NCBI GenBank assembly: GCA_021794275.1
Contig: JAJYRD010000010.1
Coordinates: 1 to 64,000 of the forward strand
Length of the DNA stretch: 64,000 bases
From: Pseudomonadota bacterium
GTDB taxonomy: Bacteria > Pseudomonadota > Gammaproteobacteria > Acidiferrobacterales > Acidiferrobacteraceae
Direction: 5' to 3'
Shown piece after piece: positions 46,461 to 60,952 of this stretch; within the stretch, counting starts at the first letter, position 1, and the number at the start of each line of letters is the position of its first letter. The notes beneath the pieces were generated by a model that worked only from the letters and a program-made list of their open reading frames with translations, did no database searches and was not told the origin of the DNA. The translations under genes and the position numbers were made by a program.

Positions 46461-49436
46461 GTGTCCGCCGATCCGCACCTGCATCCCTGCGTCATACGTG
46501 TCGACGAGCAAGACATTGCGACTCATGTAGGCGAAAATCTGCTCGAGGCCGTGGTCCGCGCCGACCGTTACATCCCGCACCTCTGCTACAACCCAGCCCT
46601 GGGCCCCATAAAAACCTGCGACACCTGTTTCGTCACGGTCGACGGTGCCCTGATCCGCGCCTGCACCCTGCTCGCCCATGACGGCCTGGAGGTCAGCACC
46701 AAGGATGCGCCTTCAGAAGCGGCACGCCGCGAGGGCCTGGACCGTATCCTCGAAAAACACGAACTCTACTGTTCGGTGTGTGACAACAACAATGGCGACT
46801 GCGAGATCCACGATGCGGTCGACAGACTAGCCGTTCGCCATCAGCGCTATCCCTACAGGCCAAAGCCTTACAGCCCCGACGCGTCGAACCCTTTCTACAC
46901 ATACGACCCGCTTCAATGCATACTCTGCGGGCGCTGCGTGGAGGCCTGCCAGAACGTACAAGTCAACGAAACCTTGAGTATAGGCTGGGAACTGGAACAT
47001 CCCCGCGTCCTATGGGACGGGGGCCGGCCGATCAATGAGTCGAGCTGCGTGTCCTGCGGTCACTGCGTGACGGTATGCCCCTGCAATGCACTTATGGAAA
47101 ACACCCTACTCGGAAAGGCCGGCCCATTCACCGGCTGGCCCGCGCCCGTGAAACGCGAGATGATCGAGTTCGTGAAGGGTGTGGAGCAAACCACGACCTT
47201 CATTCCGATCACCGCCATCTCGAAGATCGACGAATGCCTGCGCCATGCGGAACAGAAGATCACAAAGACCGTCTGCACCTTCTGTGGGGTTGGCTGCTCC
47301 TTCGATATCACGACCCGCGGCCGCCATATCCTGAAGATCCAGCCGGAACAGGGGCCGGCCAATGGCATATCGACCTGCGTCAAGGGCAAGTTCGGGTGGG
47401 ACTTCGTAAACAGCAAGGACCGCCTCATCAAACCCCTGATCCGCGAAGGATCCTCATTCCGCGAGGCAAGCTGGGACGAGGCCTTGGGGCTTGTTCACGA
47501 GCGGTTTAGCGCAATTCGCGCAAGCCATGGGGCCGACGCCCTGGGCTTCGTCGCCACAAGCAAGGGCTCGAACGAGGAAGTCTATCTCACGCAAAAGTTC
47601 GCGCGCGCCATCGTCGGTACCAACAATGTCGATTGCACCTCCCGCTACTGTCAAAGTCCGGCCACCGAGGGGCTCACGCGCACCGTGGGCTATGCTGGCG
47701 ACTCGGGCACCATGGATGACATCGACGACGCCGAACTCCTGCTTATGATCGGCACAAACACAACCGACAGCCACCCGGTGCTCGCGACCCGCATCAAGCG
47801 CCGCCTGAAACGCGGCGAGGTGAAAGTGATCGTCGCAGACCTCCTGCGCCACGAAATGGCCGAGCGCGCCACCGTCTTCCTGCGGCCCAGACCCGGCACC
47901 GACCTCGTGTGGCTTTGCGCCGTGACGCGCTACATCCTCGACCGCGGGCTTCAAGATCAGGCCTTTCTCGAAAAGCGCGTGAATAACCTCGACGCCCTGC
48001 GCGCCTCGCTCGCTCCGTTCACGCTCGCCTACGCCTGCGCCGAGACCGGCATCCCTGAAGCCCAGATCGTGCGTATCGCCGAAATGATTGTCGATGCCTC
48101 AGGCGTGTGCGCCCTCTGGGCGATGGGTGTGACCCAGCGCACAACGGGCAGCGACACGAGTACCGCCATCTCAAATCTGCTCCTAGTCACTGGAAACTAC
48201 GGAAAGAAGGGCTCGGGGGCCTACCCCTTGCGTGGCCACAACAACGTCCAGGGCGCAGGCGACTTCGGTGCGTTGTCCGACAAGCTACCAGGGTACTTGA
48301 AGATCTCGGACGCGAAGGCGCGCGAACGCGTCGGCCGTGCCTGGGGGGTCAAGATCCCCGTAAAAGCCGGCCTCAATAATCACAGCATGATAGAAGCCGC
48401 ACACGCGGGCGAACTCAAGGCCATGTACATCATAGGGGAGGATACAGCAGTGGTCGATGCTGATGCCCGCCATACCCAGGCGGCGCTGGAGAAGCTCGAC
48501 TTTCTGGTTGTCCAGGACATCTTCATGACCACCACCGCGCGGTTCGCCGACGTCGTGCTACCGGCGTGCCCCAGCCTCGAAAAGGAAGGCACGTTTGTGA
48601 ATACGGAACGGCGCATCCAACACTTCGAGCCTGCGTTCGATCCGCTCGGTGAATCCAGGCCTGACTGGTTGATACTCTGCGAACTCGCAAAGCGCTTCGG
48701 GCACCGCTGGGATTATGCGGGACCCCAGGAGATCATGTCGGAGGCCAGCAAGGTTGCGCCTATCCTGGCCGGGGTCACCTACGATCGCCTCGAGGGCTAC
48801 AACTCCCTCGTGTGGCCCGTCGACGCCGAGGGACACTCCGAGACGCTCCTTTACACGAAGAGCTTCCATACCGAGGACGGCAAGGCCACGCTCTATCCCG
48901 TCCATTGGCACGCCCCGATAGAGCAGGCCGATGGCGAGTACGACCTCACTTTGAACAATGGGCGCGTACTAGAACATTTCCAGGAGGGCAACCTCACCGC
49001 GCGCGTCCCTGGGATCGTCTCCAAGGTCAACCAGTTTTATGTGGAGGTATCGCGCGAACTTGCAGATGAGTTGGGCATAAAGACCGGGGCGTGCGTGACG
49101 CTCACTTCACGCCGTGGCAGTGTGGATGCTGGTGTATTGGTGAGCCCTCGCGTCACCGGGCGTGAACTCTATACCGTCGAATTCTCCCTAAAAGAGCCCA
49201 TCAACCGCTTGACCGGCAATCACGTCGACGCGGCGACCCAGACGCCCGCCTTCAAAGAGCTTGCGGTGAAACTCAAGGTGCTAACACGGGAAGGCCCCTC
49301 GCCGGTGCCGCGTTCGAACCCTCGTTTCGGTGCGCGCACCCCGCAATCCGGCGTCGAAGTCGAACGGAAATGGAAGCGCCGCGAGTACCGGCCCGTACCC
49401 GAAACGATTACGACCCGCGCGGGGGGCCAATCATGA
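46461..49436 (+). CDS. Molybdenum formate dehydrogenase-like oxidoreductase, YjgC/YrhE type
   Basis: A 991-residue protein. An N-terminal 2Fe-2S domain has Cys42, 53, 56 and 68; a His-Cys3 cluster motif (HELYCSVCDNNNGDCEIH) and two 4Fe-4S ferredoxin motifs (CILCGRCVEAC, CVSCGHCVTVCPC) follow. The molybdopterin domains then begin with CTFCGVGCSFDI. The active-site residue is Cys397 in SRYCQSPATEGL. It should oxidise formate to CO2 with Mo- or W-bis-MGD. AAGGAGG precedes GTG 46461. A DUF1641 gene overlaps its end; no separate NAD- or quinone-reactive subunit is adjacent. Confidence 0.9.
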   Translation: MSADPHLHPCVIRVDEQDIATHVGENLLEAVVRADRYIPHLCYNPALGPIKTCDTCFVTVDGALIRACTLLAHDGLEVSTKDAPSEAARREGLDRILEKHELYCSVCDNNNGDCEIHDAVDRLAVRHQRYPYRPKPYSPDASNPFYTYDPLQCILCGRCVEACQNVQVNETLSIGWELEHPRVLWDGGRPINESSCVSCGHCVTVCPCNALMENTLLGKAGPFTGWPAPVKREMIEFVKGVEQTTTFIPITAISKIDECLRHAEQKITKTVCTFCGVGCSFDITTRGRHILKIQPEQGPANGISTCVKGKFGWDFVNSKDRLIKPLIREGSSFREASWDEALGLVHERFSAIRASHGADALGFVATSKGSNEEVYLTQKFARAIVGTNNVDCTSRYCQSPATEGLTRTVGYAGDSGTMDDIDDAELLLMIGTNTTDSHPVLATRIKRRLKRGEVKVIVADLLRHEMAERATVFLRPRPGTDLVWLCAVTRYILDRGLQDQAFLEKRVNNLDALRASLAPFTLAYACAETGIPEAQIVRIAEMIVDASGVCALWAMGVTQRTTGSDTSTAISNLLLVTGNYGKKGSGAYPLRGHNNVQGAGDFGALSDKLPGYLKISDAKARERVGRAWGVKIPVKAGLNNHSMIEAAHAGELKAMYIIGEDTAVVDADARHTQAALEKLDFLVVQDIFMTTTARFADVVLPACPSLEKEGTFVNTERRIQHFEPAFDPLGESRPDWLILCELAKRFGHRWDYAGPQEIMSEASKVAPILAGVTYDRLEGYNSLVWPVDAEGHSETLLYTKSFHTEDGKATLYPVHWHAPIEQADGEYDLTLNNGRVLEHFQEGNLTARVPGIVSKVNQFYVEVSRELADELGIKTGACVTLTSRRGSVDAGVLVSPRVTGRELYTVEFSLKEPINRLTGNHVDAATQTPAFKELAVKLKVLTREGPSPVPRSNPRFGARTPQSGVEVERKWKRREYRPVPETITTRAGGQS

Positions 49437-56276: not shown

Positions 56277-57203
56277 TCAGGCGCGCAAGGGCGCGGCGCC
56301 CTTCGGACCATCGTAATGATAGCGCCGCAAAAGCGCCTGGCCGGCAGGCGCGCGCAGCCATTCGATGAAATGGCCGGCCGCCACGCGATTTCTGCTCGCC
56401 TTCAACACCGTCGCGTAGAACACCAGGGGGGACGGCCTGTGGACCTTCCCCTTCAACCGCAAGGACACTGCGGCATAGGCCTTGTCGTATGCCGCATCGC
56501 CCAGGTTGATCTGCGGCGGCAAGGACAGGTAGGGCAAGCCCATGGCCGCAGGCTGGGTCTTATAGGCGGAGCTCGCATCGAGTTGTCCGCCCTGAAGGCG
56601 CGCCATCACCTCGGGCTCCGGAAAGATCTGACGGTGATTGATGGTGGGCCCTAGGATACGGTGCGCGAGCGTCGGCTGGTGGTAGTAGCGCTCGGCGAGC
56701 TTCATCATAAAGACAATGTTCAGCCCCTGGGGATCGGTCAGTGGATCGGTACGCGCAAAGCGCACGCCCGGCTCTTCCAGTATCTGCCACCACGCTGCGT
56801 GTCCGGCCCTGTCCGCCTCACGGAATGCCGGCGTGAATCGGCTATGCGCGCTGTAGGCGATCACAAGTTCCGTGCTGGCAATGGCAAACGCCTCCTGCGC
56901 CTTACCCGAGGCGAGCACGAGATCCATCGGGCCGCGGGTGATCGATATGAACACGTCCGGATGAATGGCGCCGCCGACGATCATGTGCGCGAGACCGAGC
57001 GCCCCCTGCGCCCTCCCTTCTATCTGTGTGGAAAACTCTCGCACCATGACGGGCGCCACCCCGCCATGCATGAGCGCACCCATGGAACCGGCATAGGCAA
57101 CGCGTAAACGCGTCTCGATGCGTGCCTCGCCCAGCACAGGCACCGCAAGCGCGCCGATACCCATCGCCGCCGACTGTAGAAATGCCCTTCTCGTGATACC
57201 CAT
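56277..57203 (-). CDS. Periplasmic oxyanion-binding protein, ModA/WtpA-like, Tat signal
   Basis: A 308-residue protein. The leader MGITRRAFLQSAAMGIGALA has a twin-arginine motif. The mature part (RLRVAYAGSMGALMHGGVAP) and ASTELVIAYSAHSRFTPAFR match the molybdate/tungstate-binding WtpA/ModA group; DPQGLNIVFMMKLAERYY is also typical. AAGGAGG precedes ATG 57203. It follows the porin gene by 35 bases and modE further upstream, but no modB or modC permease genes are present here. Confidence 0.8.
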   Translation of the reverse strand: MGITRRAFLQSAAMGIGALAVPVLGEARIETRLRVAYAGSMGALMHGGVAPVMVREFSTQIEGRAQGALGLAHMIVGGAIHPDVFISITRGPMDLVLASGKAQEAFAIASTELVIAYSAHSRFTPAFREADRAGHAAWWQILEEPGVRFARTDPLTDPQGLNIVFMMKLAERYYHQPTLAHRILGPTINHRQIFPEPEVMARLQGGQLDASSAYKTQPAAMGLPYLSLPPQINLGDAAYDKAYAAVSLRLKGKVHRPSPLVFYATVLKASRNRVAAGHFIEWLRAPAGQALLRRYHYDGPKGAAPLRA

Positions 57204-57238
57204 AACCCCTCCTTGTAATATGTCATGTGGTGCGACGC

Positions 57239-58501
57239 CTAGAATTGGTATTGCAACATCACTCGGTTGTATATGAACTGGTGAAGGACTGGCATATCCT
57301 CCGCGATCGCCAGACGATCGCGGATTGATAGGCCCTTGAGCGTACCCCGCAGGAAATATGTGAGGTCGATGTTCGTCTCGCTGGTGTGCGACGCGGTATA
57401 CAGGGCCGTGCGCGCGCTGATGTAGCGCGCGTAACTCAGTATCGCCCGCAAGCGGTGACGCAGAAGGAATAGAGTGGCGCTCACCTTCCACGCGTGACCA
57501 GACGTGCGGTTATCAACAAGACTTTGGATGATGGAGGTCGTGTAGAGGGGGTCGGTGGCATAACCGCTCGTATATGGTGACACGAGATCGCCGTTGGCAA
57601 ACGTCCCCGGGTGCGCCGGCACGGCATCGTAGCCCAGCGTGAGCAGATCGCGATGGCGACGCACGCCAACCACCGCACCGTAGACGCTGGCGTTAACGGG
57701 TCCCAAATAGGCGCCGCCCGCGCCAGTCTCGCGCACGAGTTGCGCGCCGACAAGTGGCTGCACGCCGCCGGGTGCGCCAAAGGTATAGGAGCCCTCCGCC
57801 CACCCCATCTTGGCGAGATCATAGAACTCGTACCCCCAGGCCGCCACCTTGAGGCCCGCCGTCTGGTAACGCGCCCCCAGGGCCGCCGCCCCCGGTTCGG
57901 TGCGCCCCGGCAAACCGCCGATGCCGCCGATATTGTGGTTCGCCGTCGCGTTATAGAGATCGGTGGACGAAAAACCGTCGGAAGTACGACTTTTGAAGCG
58001 CGTGATGCGCAATGCCGAGACCACGAGACCCGGGAGTGGTCGAAAGGCGGCGAGCAGACCCTGATAGGTCTCCGGCACGATGCGCGAATCGCCCGGGTTG
58101 ATCCAGGGGGTTTTTATGAGCTGATCACCGGCGCGCAGCAGTACGGCGTCGCGCCGATACTGAAGATAGGCCTGCCCGAAGGTGTCGATGGCTCCATAGC
58201 CCGCCAATGTCCCGTCGACATAGGCGTGGTTGGCCGGGTTGAGGCCCAGGGAATGGGCTGTATAAAACGTGGCGTCCGCCGAGACGTGATGGAACGTCCC
58301 GGAACGGAGGTTGATCCCGCCACCGACGGCAAACGCGCGCCGATTAGGCGGCGAGCCACTGAAATAGCGGGTGAAATCATAAGCCCGCAACATGCCGCTC
58401 ACGCGCATGCCGCTCAAAAAACCCGTACCCGCCGCGCGCGCAGACCCGATGCCCACGACCAGCCACGCCGCCCCGACCACTAAACCCAAGCTATACCGCA
58501 C
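57239..58501 (-). CDS. OprD-family outer-membrane porin
   Basis: A 420-residue protein with a signal peptide (SLGLVVGAAWLVVGIGSARA) and an alternating beta-strand pattern ending in ...YNRVMLQYQF with the terminal Phe required for barrel assembly. Blocks such as RAGDQLIKTPWINPGDSRIV and YQGLLAAFRPLPGLVVSALR match OprD-type porins, which let specific small solutes enter. GTG 58501 follows GGGAGG. Placed between modE and the ModA-like gene, it may be a molybdate- or tungstate-linked channel; that is inference. Confidence 0.8.
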   Translation of the reverse strand: MRYSLGLVVGAAWLVVGIGSARAAGTGFLSGMRVSGMLRAYDFTRYFSGSPPNRRAFAVGGGINLRSGTFHHVSADATFYTAHSLGLNPANHAYVDGTLAGYGAIDTFGQAYLQYRRDAVLLRAGDQLIKTPWINPGDSRIVPETYQGLLAAFRPLPGLVVSALRITRFKSRTSDGFSSTDLYNATANHNIGGIGGLPGRTEPGAAALGARYQTAGLKVAAWGYEFYDLAKMGWAEGSYTFGAPGGVQPLVGAQLVRETGAGGAYLGPVNASVYGAVVGVRRHRDLLTLGYDAVPAHPGTFANGDLVSPYTSGYATDPLYTTSIIQSLVDNRTSGHAWKVSATLFLLRHRLRAILSYARYISARTALYTASHTSETNIDLTYFLRGTLKGLSIRDRLAIAEDMPVLHQFIYNRVMLQYQF

Positions 58502-58658
58502 GACGCCTCCCTTGTTGTCAAGAAAATGAACCGCCGGGGCGCTCTGCGGCACCCTCGCCGACTTACCGAAATACCCGCCCTCGTGATCTCCCATCACGCG
58601 CGGGCCTTGTGGGGCGCGCGAGACGCGCCCGTCATGGCTCCCCGCACCCGCACTCCGC

Positions 58659-59462
58659 CTAGACGGTGACCGCCAGGATGATGTGCGATGCCTTGATCAG
58701 GGCGCAGGCGCGCACGCCCTCCTTTAGCTGAAGACTTTCGATGCTCTCGTTGGTGATGATGGCGGCAATACTCTTGCCGCTATCGAGTTCGATCACCACC
58801 TCGCCGTTCACCGCGCCCGTCTGACAGCGCGTCACGACCCCACACAGGGTATTGCGCGCGCTGGTCCTTATCGGGCTATCGGCCGGCATCACGATGACCC
58901 ATGGGGCCTTGATGAGGGCATAGGCCTCGACGCCCGGGGCAAGCCCCAGGTTATCCACGCTTTCGTTGGTGATGATTGCCACTAACGCGAGACCGTTGCC
59001 GATATTGAGCACTACCTCGGCATTGACCGCCCCCTTCTTGACCGTCCGGACCTGGCCCAGAAACTCATTGCGCGCACTGGTCTTCATGTCGAATTTCCTC
59101 ATCAGCTGAAAGAAGCGATCGAAATCCTCATGCCCCTGCAGCGCCTCGAGAAAGCGTCGGTAATCGCCCTCGAGCCGTCGAAACGCAGACAGGGCCCGCA
59201 GGCCGAAGGGGGTCAGGACCGTGCCCCCTCCGCTCTTGCCCCCCGACACCCTCGCCAGCAACGGGGTGGCAGACAGATTGTTCATGCTCTCGACCGCCTC
59301 CCAGGCGCCTTTATAACTGAGCCCCAGAGCCTTGGCGGCGGCCGAGATCGATCCCAACTCCGCGATCTTCTCCAACAGCTCGATACGGCCCTTGCCACGC
59401 CGCCCACCCGACTCCGCCACGAACCGCATGGTCGAGGAATGCCGCTCTCCGCGCTCCTTCAT
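58659..59462 (-). CDS. modE: Molybdate-responsive regulator ModE
   Basis: A 267-residue regulator with an N-terminal winged helix (IELLEKIAELGSISAAAKAL, LGLSYKGAWEAVESMNN) and two tandem MOP domains (SARNEFLGQVRTVKKGAVNA and SARNTLCGVVTRCQTGAVNG), each the first strand of a molybdate-binding repeat. It binds molybdate or tungstate as a dimer and controls uptake and molybdoenzyme genes. GAGAGG precedes the ATG. It heads the cassette with the porin and binding protein; a palindrome lies just upstream. Confidence 0.92.
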   Translation of the reverse strand: MKERGERHSSTMRFVAESGGRRGKGRIELLEKIAELGSISAAAKALGLSYKGAWEAVESMNNLSATPLLARVSGGKSGGGTVLTPFGLRALSAFRRLEGDYRRFLEALQGHEDFDRFFQLMRKFDMKTSARNEFLGQVRTVKKGAVNAEVVLNIGNGLALVAIITNESVDNLGLAPGVEAYALIKAPWVIVMPADSPIRTSARNTLCGVVTRCQTGAVNGEVVIELDSGKSIAAIITNESIESLQLKEGVRACALIKASHIILAVTV

Positions 59463-59484
59463 AAGGCCTCTCTGACATATGGTT

Positions 59485-59501
59485 ATGTAGTTTTACTACA
59501 T
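59485..59501. promoter_or_regulatory. Candidate ModE operator
   Basis: ATGTAGT and ACTACAT arms with a TTT centre form a perfect 17-base dyad, starting 23 bases upstream of modE. ModE sites are AT-rich inverted repeats with TAT-type half-sites; this one is similar in layout but not identical to the E. coli consensus. Autoregulation is inferred from position. Confidence 0.5.
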
Positions 59502-59653
59502 GACGCGTGGTGCGTAAATACCGAACGGACCGATCGGTACGCGGAACTTTTCGATGGCGGCATAAAACGCGGACCCCCAGCGGTCGGGCCGCGCGGGCGG
59601 CGAGATGGCCTTCGGGGAACGGCGCCGGCCTCTTGCGGGTGAGGTCGCTACAC

Positions 59654-60952
59654 TTAGGTCTTGGGGAGAGTCACGCCCTTCTGGCCTTGATATTTCCCAC
59701 CACGGTCCTTGTAGGAGGTCTCGCAGGGTTCGTCGGCCTCGAAAAAGATCACCTGCGCCACGCCCTCGTTGGCATAGATCTTCGCGGGCAAGGGTGAGGT
59801 ATTCGAGAACTCGAGCGTGACATGGCCCTCCCACTCCGGCTCGAAGGGCGTCACGTTGACGATGATGCCGCAGCGGGCATAGGTCGAGTTGTGCACGACG
59901 AGCCCGTTCGCAACAAAGTTGTGCAATCCCGGGACCTCGATGTCGTAGACCGGCTCTTGGCCTGCGGGATGAATGGCGGCCACGCGGTCCCACTCGGTGG
60001 CACCGCGAGAGAAAATCCCGTCAGTGCCGTTGCCGCAACATTCGACGGCCGAGCCCCGTACGAGCAAGCGGGCGCCCACACCCTCCTCGACCGTCCGGCA
60101 GGACATGCCAAGGCGGGCCGCGAGGTGGCGTATCTCGTCTACCACGGGGCGCGGGGCACACAGACCCTCATTTTCGGAATCACCCATGACGGAGGTCACG
60201 AAACGGGCGATGTCGGCGCGCGGGGCGCGAAAGACCACGTCCGGGATGGCCTTGATCGTGCCCGCCTGCGCCTGCGCCCGCACCAGGCGCCCAAGCCGCT
60301 CGGGGGCAATCAAGGGCTTGCTTCCAAAGAATGGTGCCGACACCGCTGCTGCGAGCCTGTCGCCCACGGCCAGATCCGAAAGAGGCACCCACCCCGTAGG
60401 CGTGAGCAGGGGGTGATTTGCGGTCGCGGTGAGCGACAGGCCGCTTTCCGTGACGAGTCGCCATACCGGCTTGACCCCGTGGGAGGCAAGCGCCGATACG
60501 CGCGCCTGACGCATGCCTCCAGGGGCGAGCGCCGCCGTGCGTCGCGCACGATCCCAATCACTGATGCGCAGGTACTCGCCCGTGTCGGCGTCGAGCACAC
60601 GCGTATCGCCGGTCACGCACTTGCCTAGACAGATCGTAAGGACATTACGGGGGATGCGAAAGTATTCGACTGTCCGCGCAAGCGCGAAGGAGTTAGGGGG
60701 TATGATGCAGACCTCCCCGCGAAAATCCACGAAACTATTGGCGTCGAAGTTCTTCGGATCGACGATAGCGGAATTGATGTTCGTGAAAATCTTGAACTCG
60801 TTGGAGCAACGGATATCGTAGCCGTAGCTCGACGTGCCGAAGGATACGAGGCGCTCGCCCCCCCGCGACTTCACCTGACCGGGCTCGAACGGCTCAATCA
60901 TGCCGTGATCCTGGGCCATGCGCCGGATCCATTTATCGGATTTTATGCTCAT
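59654..60952 (-). CDS. dcd: dCTP deaminase precursor containing an intein
   Basis: A 432-residue precursor. Residues 1-111 (SIKSDKWIRRMAQDHGMIEP to LTICLGK) and 356-432 (STYARCGIIVNVTPFEPEWE to the end) together make a normal 188-residue Dcd, which deaminates dCTP to dUTP. The 244 residues between (112-355) are an intein. The insertion falls directly before the serine corresponding to E. coli Ser111, so deaminase activity should require splicing. GGTGAG precedes ATG 60952. mrp lies 45 bases upstream on the same strand. Confidence 0.93.
   Translation of the reverse strand: MSIKSDKWIRRMAQDHGMIEPFEPGQVKSRGGERLVSFGTSSYGYDIRCSNEFKIFTNINSAIVDPKNFDANSFVDFRGEVCIIPPNSFALARTVEYFRIPRNVLTICLGKCVTGDTRVLDADTGEYLRISDWDRARRTAALAPGGMRQARVSALASHGVKPVWRLVTESGLSLTATANHPLLTPTGWVPLSDLAVGDRLAAAVSAPFFGSKPLIAPERLGRLVRAQAQAGTIKAIPDVVFRAPRADIARFVTSVMGDSENEGLCAPRPVVDEIRHLAARLGMSCRTVEEGVGARLLVRGSAVECCGNGTDGIFSRGATEWDRVAAIHPAGQEPVYDIEVPGLHNFVANGLVVHNSTYARCGIIVNVTPFEPEWEGHVTLEFSNTSPLPAKIYANEGVAQVIFFEADEPCETSYKDRGGKYQGQKGVTLPKT
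59888..60619 (-). other. Intein within dCTP deaminase (244 residues, residual homing-endonuclease region)
   Basis: Starts with Cys112 in CVTGDTRVLDADTGEYLRIS (block A). Block B is GLSLTATANHPLLTPTGW with its TxxH. Blocks F and G are VYDIEVPGLHNFVANGLVVH followed by Asn355, then extein Ser356. All residues needed for canonical class 1 splicing are present. About 130 residues between blocks B and F include RAPRADIARFVTSVMGDSEN and LAARLGMS, which look like a decayed LAGLIDADG endonuclease with the catalytic motif lost. The gene stays in frame across the junctions. Confidence 0.92.

Follow-up and report, generated by a model that had tools for sequence, protein, structure and literature searches.

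The described systems closest to the locus analyzed here are the WtpABC importers of Pyrococcus furiosus and Archaeoglobus fulgidus and the modE-modABC system of Escherichia coli. With WtpABC the locus shares the family of its binding protein, in which both coordinating carboxylates are kept, and a ModB/WtpB-type permease and a ModC/WtpC-type ATPase are likewise present in relatives of the draft genome; however, the genes are split over two loci, the binding protein carries a Tat-like signal, a porin gene adjoins, and the ATPase of the draft's relatives is without a TOBE domain. With E. coli it has in common a full-length ModE with two Mop domains, an operator half-site that is similar, and the placement of the regulator near a binding-protein gene, but here modE is grouped with the genes for a porin and a WtpA-like protein instead of lying beside modABC. 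OprP of Pseudomonas aeruginosa, a phosphate-specific outer-membrane channel, offers a precedent for a pore dedicated to an oxyanion, although its porin family differs from that of the OprD/Occ-like channel found in this cassette. In Desulfovibrio vulgaris, modA and modBC are likewise located in separate predicted operons, but both units there have a predicted ModE-type site and no porin is reported (PMC545781).

Here we describe a modE-oprD-wtpA cassette from an acid-loving Acidiferrobacter relative which, in our assessment, probably supplies, under ModE control, the outer-membrane and periplasmic parts of a split WtpA-type Mo/W ABC importer, the inner-membrane half being encoded elsewhere with the Moco genes. 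The window, i.e., the whole stretch of DNA analyzed, comprises 64,000 nt (positions 1 to 64,000 of contig JAJYRD010000010.1, assembly GCA_021794275.1; Acidiferrobacteraceae, Acidiferrobacterales). The draft genome (G000; 92.7% complete) was compared with 17 relatives, making 18 family genomes, one of which (G005) is a single contig of 3.4 Mb. A wider scan of about 85,000 genomes yielded 269 relatives, and the neighborhoods of the best 80 loci were read.

The cassette and its regulator

The three genes lie on the minus strand in the order modE, oprD, and wtpA-like gene, separated by gaps of 157 and 35 nt, and are predicted to be transcribed as an operon. The features are as follows.

59482..59504, no strand assigned: ModE-box-like inverted repeat, GTTATGTAGT-N3-ACTACATGAC on the plus strand, starting 42 bp upstream of the ATG of modE
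58659..59462, minus strand: modE, encoding a full-length ModE with a LysR-type winged helix and two Mop (TOBE) molybdate-binding domains
57239..58501, minus strand: gene for an oprD-family outer-membrane channel (PF03573) with a signal peptide; GTG start after AAGGGAGG
56277..57203, minus strand: gene for a wtpA-like tungstate/molybdate-binding protein; ATG after AAGGAGGGG, 35 nt after oprD

The initial annotation of this DNA had recognized a molybdate-type regulator at the head of a unit with an outer-membrane porin, and both identifications were confirmed. The regulator has the N-terminal winged helix and tandem Mop domains of the ModE family (NCBIfam PRK10676, 5.9e-50; Mop, 5.3e-44; PDB matches 1o7l/1b9m), shares 34% identity with the E. 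coli protein, and retains the TSARN and KAPWV motifs. The porin matched the OprD family profile PF03573 at 5.5e-15 (55.8 bits versus a cut-off of 25). TOBE domains are found in only 6 of the 18 family genomes, to which full-length ModE is therefore limited, and those of ModE are the only ones in the draft genome. At 59654-60952 (minus strand) is a dCTP deaminase gene split by an intein (DCD and Intein_splicing domains); genus relatives have a similar 431- to 432-aa gene at the place of this intein-bearing deaminase.

The inverted repeat, a near-perfect dyad missing from the initial annotation, is a predicted ModE operator to which the regulator would bind. Unlike the E. coli operator, it lies upstream of modE itself. 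A pattern search with the dyad GTYATGTAGT-N3-ACTACATRAC gave a single match in the window, before modE, and none in 100 shuffles (0.00 expected). The dyad is present in all six modE-bearing genomes (the draft and five relatives), with 8 to 10 of the 10 arm positions paired and a pairwise identity of 0.88, versus 0.46 in the 50 bp upstream. Its half-site resembles that of the E. coli modA operator, read as CGTTATATTGTCGCCTACATAACG, with a spacer one base longer (N7 instead of N6); the published ModE consensus is ATCGNTATATA-N6-TATATANCGAT (PMC545781). The region scanned contained no sigma-70-type promoters.

The binding protein is of the WtpA type

The binding protein had been described as "ModA-like," a label that the family scores do not bear out: it matched SBP_bac_11 at 3.9e-32 and NCBIfam WtpA at 1.5e-27 while reaching only 0.004 with modA, and its PDB matches are archaeal WtpA proteins (3cg1 at 1.2e-20). 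A true ModA was rejected on these scores. WtpA is the best NCBIfam match, but at 96 bits versus an equivalog cut-off of 355, i.e., by that model the protein is a distant relative and not an equivalog. Residues D157 and E196, numbered from the ATG (D158 and E197 when counted from the codon before it), align with Asp160 and Glu218 of Pyrococcus WtpA (PDB chain offset, 28 residues). Neither residue varies among 44 homologs. In P. furiosus WtpA these two carboxylates bond directly to tungsten, completing its octahedral coordination (PMC10221389). The ligand residues, which the initial annotation had proposed to predict, thus include both metal-coordinating carboxylates, and the pocket, far from being inconsistent with oxyanions, fits molybdate or tungstate, either of which the protein would bind judging from these residues.

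The N terminus carries a Tat-like signal, MGITRRAFLQ. Export by the Tat route, as claimed earlier, is suggested only by the TRRAFL motif; the scores with the Tat signal models did not reach the cut-offs.

Fifteen of the 18 family genomes have no strong SBP_bac_11 protein besides WtpA; the second, weaker match to this family in most of these 15 is presumably PstS. In four relatives (G001, G011, G014, and G008; loci L039, L040, L041, and L042), a WtpA of an Acidithiobacillus-like clade, which is not the clade expected for their ModBC, coexists with a ModB of the Acidiferrobacter type, and it is possible that the unlinked binding-protein gene was exchanged or displaced in these genomes.

A ModB-like permease and a ModC-like ATPase are encoded with the Moco genes in most relatives

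The WtpABC arrangement, with permease and ATPase genes next to wtpA, is not found here, as neither modB nor modC lies beside wtpA in this locus or in the family loci read. The draft genome encodes six PF00528 permeases (two Opp-type, PstC, PstA, and two Tau/Ssu/Nrt-type), none of them of the Mo/W type, and no TOBE-bearing ATPase. The absence of modB and modC noted in the initial annotation is therefore true of the cassette and of the draft genome, but 16 of the 17 family relatives have both, in the form of a further ModB-like permease encoded elsewhere with a ModC-like ATPase adjoining. Fifteen share the gene order AIM24 - ModB - ModC - MogA/MoaB - MoeA - MobA; in G015, ModB-ModC is found near a contig start and the rest of the Moco cluster was not seen. 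In the single-contig genome, the two loci map to 0.77 Mb (wtpA) and 3.27 Mb (Moco cluster). The one relative without ModB/ModC among the fetched loci, G017 (80% complete), has a short permease match outside the fetched set, and a search found no wtpA in it either.

The same three proteins are encoded together elsewhere. At 54 of the best 80 loci, including those of Binataceae, Acidobacteria, Eremiobacterota, Thiomonas, and Burkholderiales, a ModB-like gene adjoins wtpA, mostly followed by a ModC-like gene. The ModB and ModC of the Acidiferrobacter Moco clusters share 52 to 64% and 48 to 61% identity, respectively, with their counterparts encoded directly after the closest wtpA genes, which belong to Deltaproteobacteria, Binataceae, and Acidobacteria. 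In the annotation of a Burkholderia plasmid, the gene for a ModE-family regulator is oriented divergently from a set of wtpABC genes. Because the same WtpA, ModB, and ModC form intact operons in other phyla, the two Acidiferrobacter loci look like the dispersed halves of one system, and by analogy with these operons WtpA would be the partner of ModBC.

These genomes thus leave standing the gene cassette and the Mo/W reading of the initial annotation, but not its uptake route devoid of permease and ATPase, which relatives carry with their Moco genes; with modBC found in relatives, an orphan binding protein was dropped as the main reading. A second modABC operon with a modE of its own was not found. 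As to the earlier suggestion that modBC might lie elsewhere with ModE-like dyads, the genes were there but the dyad was absent from the fetched ModBC/Moco loci, even with up to four mismatches allowed. A shared dyad for both halves was rejected on this ground, and the two halves may therefore not be coregulated.

In the importer as we propose it, scarcity of Mo/W in the cytoplasm would cause ModE to leave the dyad upstream of modE, allowing modE-oprD-wtpA to be transcribed. The OprD channel would let the oxyanion through the outer membrane, WtpA would capture it at a six-coordinate metal site to which D157 and E196 contribute the last ligands, and the captured ion would be passed to a ModBC pump made up of the ModB-like permease and the ModC-like ATPase. 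Counting against this proposal are the limitation of full-length ModE to 6 of the 18 family genomes, the dispensability of the porin, the longer spacer of the dyad and its absence from the fetched ModBC/Moco loci, and the clade mismatch between WtpA and ModB in four relatives.

Two observations were made at the Moco loci. In 15 of the 17 relatives, the gene immediately preceding the ModB-like one belongs to the AIM24 family (L078:5605-6303) and occupies the position that wtpA takes in other phyla. The ModC-like gene of G009 (L079:7188-7882) is read in two overlapping frames, possibly reflecting a frameshift or a sequencing error.

OprD porins recur beside unlinked wtpA genes

A profile of the wtpA-linked OprDs matched Occ-channel structures at 1.9e-10. 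Possible elements of a basic Arg/Lys ladder in the barrel are a C-terminal RxR in register with 5dl7 and the residues R394 and R413, which are invariant in eight wtpA-linked OprDs. OprD adjoins wtpA in five Acidiferrobacteraceae (G000, G005, G009, G016, and G014) and adjoins a split wtpA in three Acidithiobacillus loci among the best 80; no OprD gene was seen next to wtpA in the remaining family relatives or at any of the 54 loci of the best 80 where modB adjoins wtpA. In three genomes oprD sits between modE and wtpA, and in three others (G002, G004, and G013) no porin is present between them. The porin is therefore dispensable, being absent from these units and from the vicinity of wtpA in most relatives. 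The wtpA-linked OprDs belong to at least three lineages in the OprD tree, whose long branches make the exact number of recruitments uncertain. A binomial estimate for at least three OprD in 24 loci, which assumes two OprD genes per 2,500 and ignores relatedness, gave 8e-6.

The recurrence of OprD genes of several lineages beside unlinked wtpA in two acidophile families makes it plausible that the porin is tied to Mo/W uptake, as initially proposed, and suggests that the pore may be reserved for molybdate or tungstate. We advance tentatively, as a proposition just short of evenly balanced, that this is a ModE-controlled, Mo/W-dedicated outer-membrane channel, recruited several times from OprD by acidophiles in which wtpA is split from the pump genes. 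No outer-membrane channel for molybdate or tungstate was found in the literature searched (openly licensed papers). A porin under predicted ModE regulation beside a Mo/W-binding protein is a testable candidate for such a dedicated route, which would serve organisms that may have difficulty obtaining Mo at low pH.

It is also conceivable, if unlikely, that the importer is split as proposed while the OprD channel is a general or carboxylate-type one that is merely co-located and not specific for Mo/W. A preference for carboxylates and a basic ladder are characteristic of known OprD/Occ channels (PMC3260308); general porins are believed to be the route by which molybdate diffuses into enteric bacteria, as stated for Salmonella (PMC8264917); and three close relatives do without the porin in their modE-wtpA unit. 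Mere co-location accords poorly, however, with the finding that split wtpA genes of two families have neighbors from at least three OprD lineages, with the insertion of oprD between the ModE and WtpA genes in three genomes, and with the tendency of OprD paralogs in the family to adjoin genes of other importers.

These other paralogs adjoin either PstB-PhoU or a Tau/Nrt-type SBP-permease-ATPase set, after which an OprD gene follows in G009, G003, and G007 (L211, L212, and L213). The phosphate importer of the draft genome also looks split, with PstS-PstC-PstA on one contig (L210, C33) and OprD-PstB-PhoU, with PhoB nearby, on another (L046, C83).

The ModBC/Moco block in the draft genome

In the draft genome, MoCF_biosynth (moeA, mogA) gave no match at all, against matches in 13 of 14 controls. 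No ortholog is present of the RND adaptor flanking the Moco cluster of G005 (best match, 35%). A DNA search for the 14-kb Moco block, with 40 of 204 candidates scored, found nothing, and the absence of the block is drawn from the protein and family searches. The draft nonetheless carries Fdh-alpha above the curated cut-off, and formate dehydrogenase needs the molybdenum cofactor. With MoCF_biosynth and the flanking RND ortholog both lacking and Fdh-alpha present, the ModBC/Moco block appears to be missing as a unit, likely because of an assembly gap, which is the simplest reading. An ABC importer encoded at two separate loci can seem incomplete when such a gap covers one of them.

The lack of any ModB or ModC in the draft could instead mean that this strain truly lost modBC and that the cassette operates without an ABC pump, with WtpA scavenging or sensing in the periplasm or cooperating with a different permease. 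We regard this as quite improbable, given that modBC is kept by 16 of 17 relatives and that the draft, despite its formate dehydrogenase, also lacks moeA/mogA and the flanking RND gene. About equally improbable is that the substrate of WtpA and the porin is a different oxyanion or small anion, with ModE marking coregulation only. In favor of this reading, Ala occupies the position of the second Ser of the GS motif of archaeal WtpA, both here and in 31 of 44 homologs; against it, both metal-coordinating carboxylates are invariant, the ModBC partners are located with Moco genes, and the ModE gene adjoins.

With the cassette taken as half of a split Mo/W importer, the two roles suggested for it at the outset, an adaptation to low-pH molybdate chemistry and the feeding of a formate dehydrogenase, are both consistent with the taxa and the gene content. 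The dehydrogenase gene, at 46461-49436 on the plus strand and about 7 kb from the cassette, encodes an alpha subunit of the NAD-type enzyme whose N terminus is NuoG-like.
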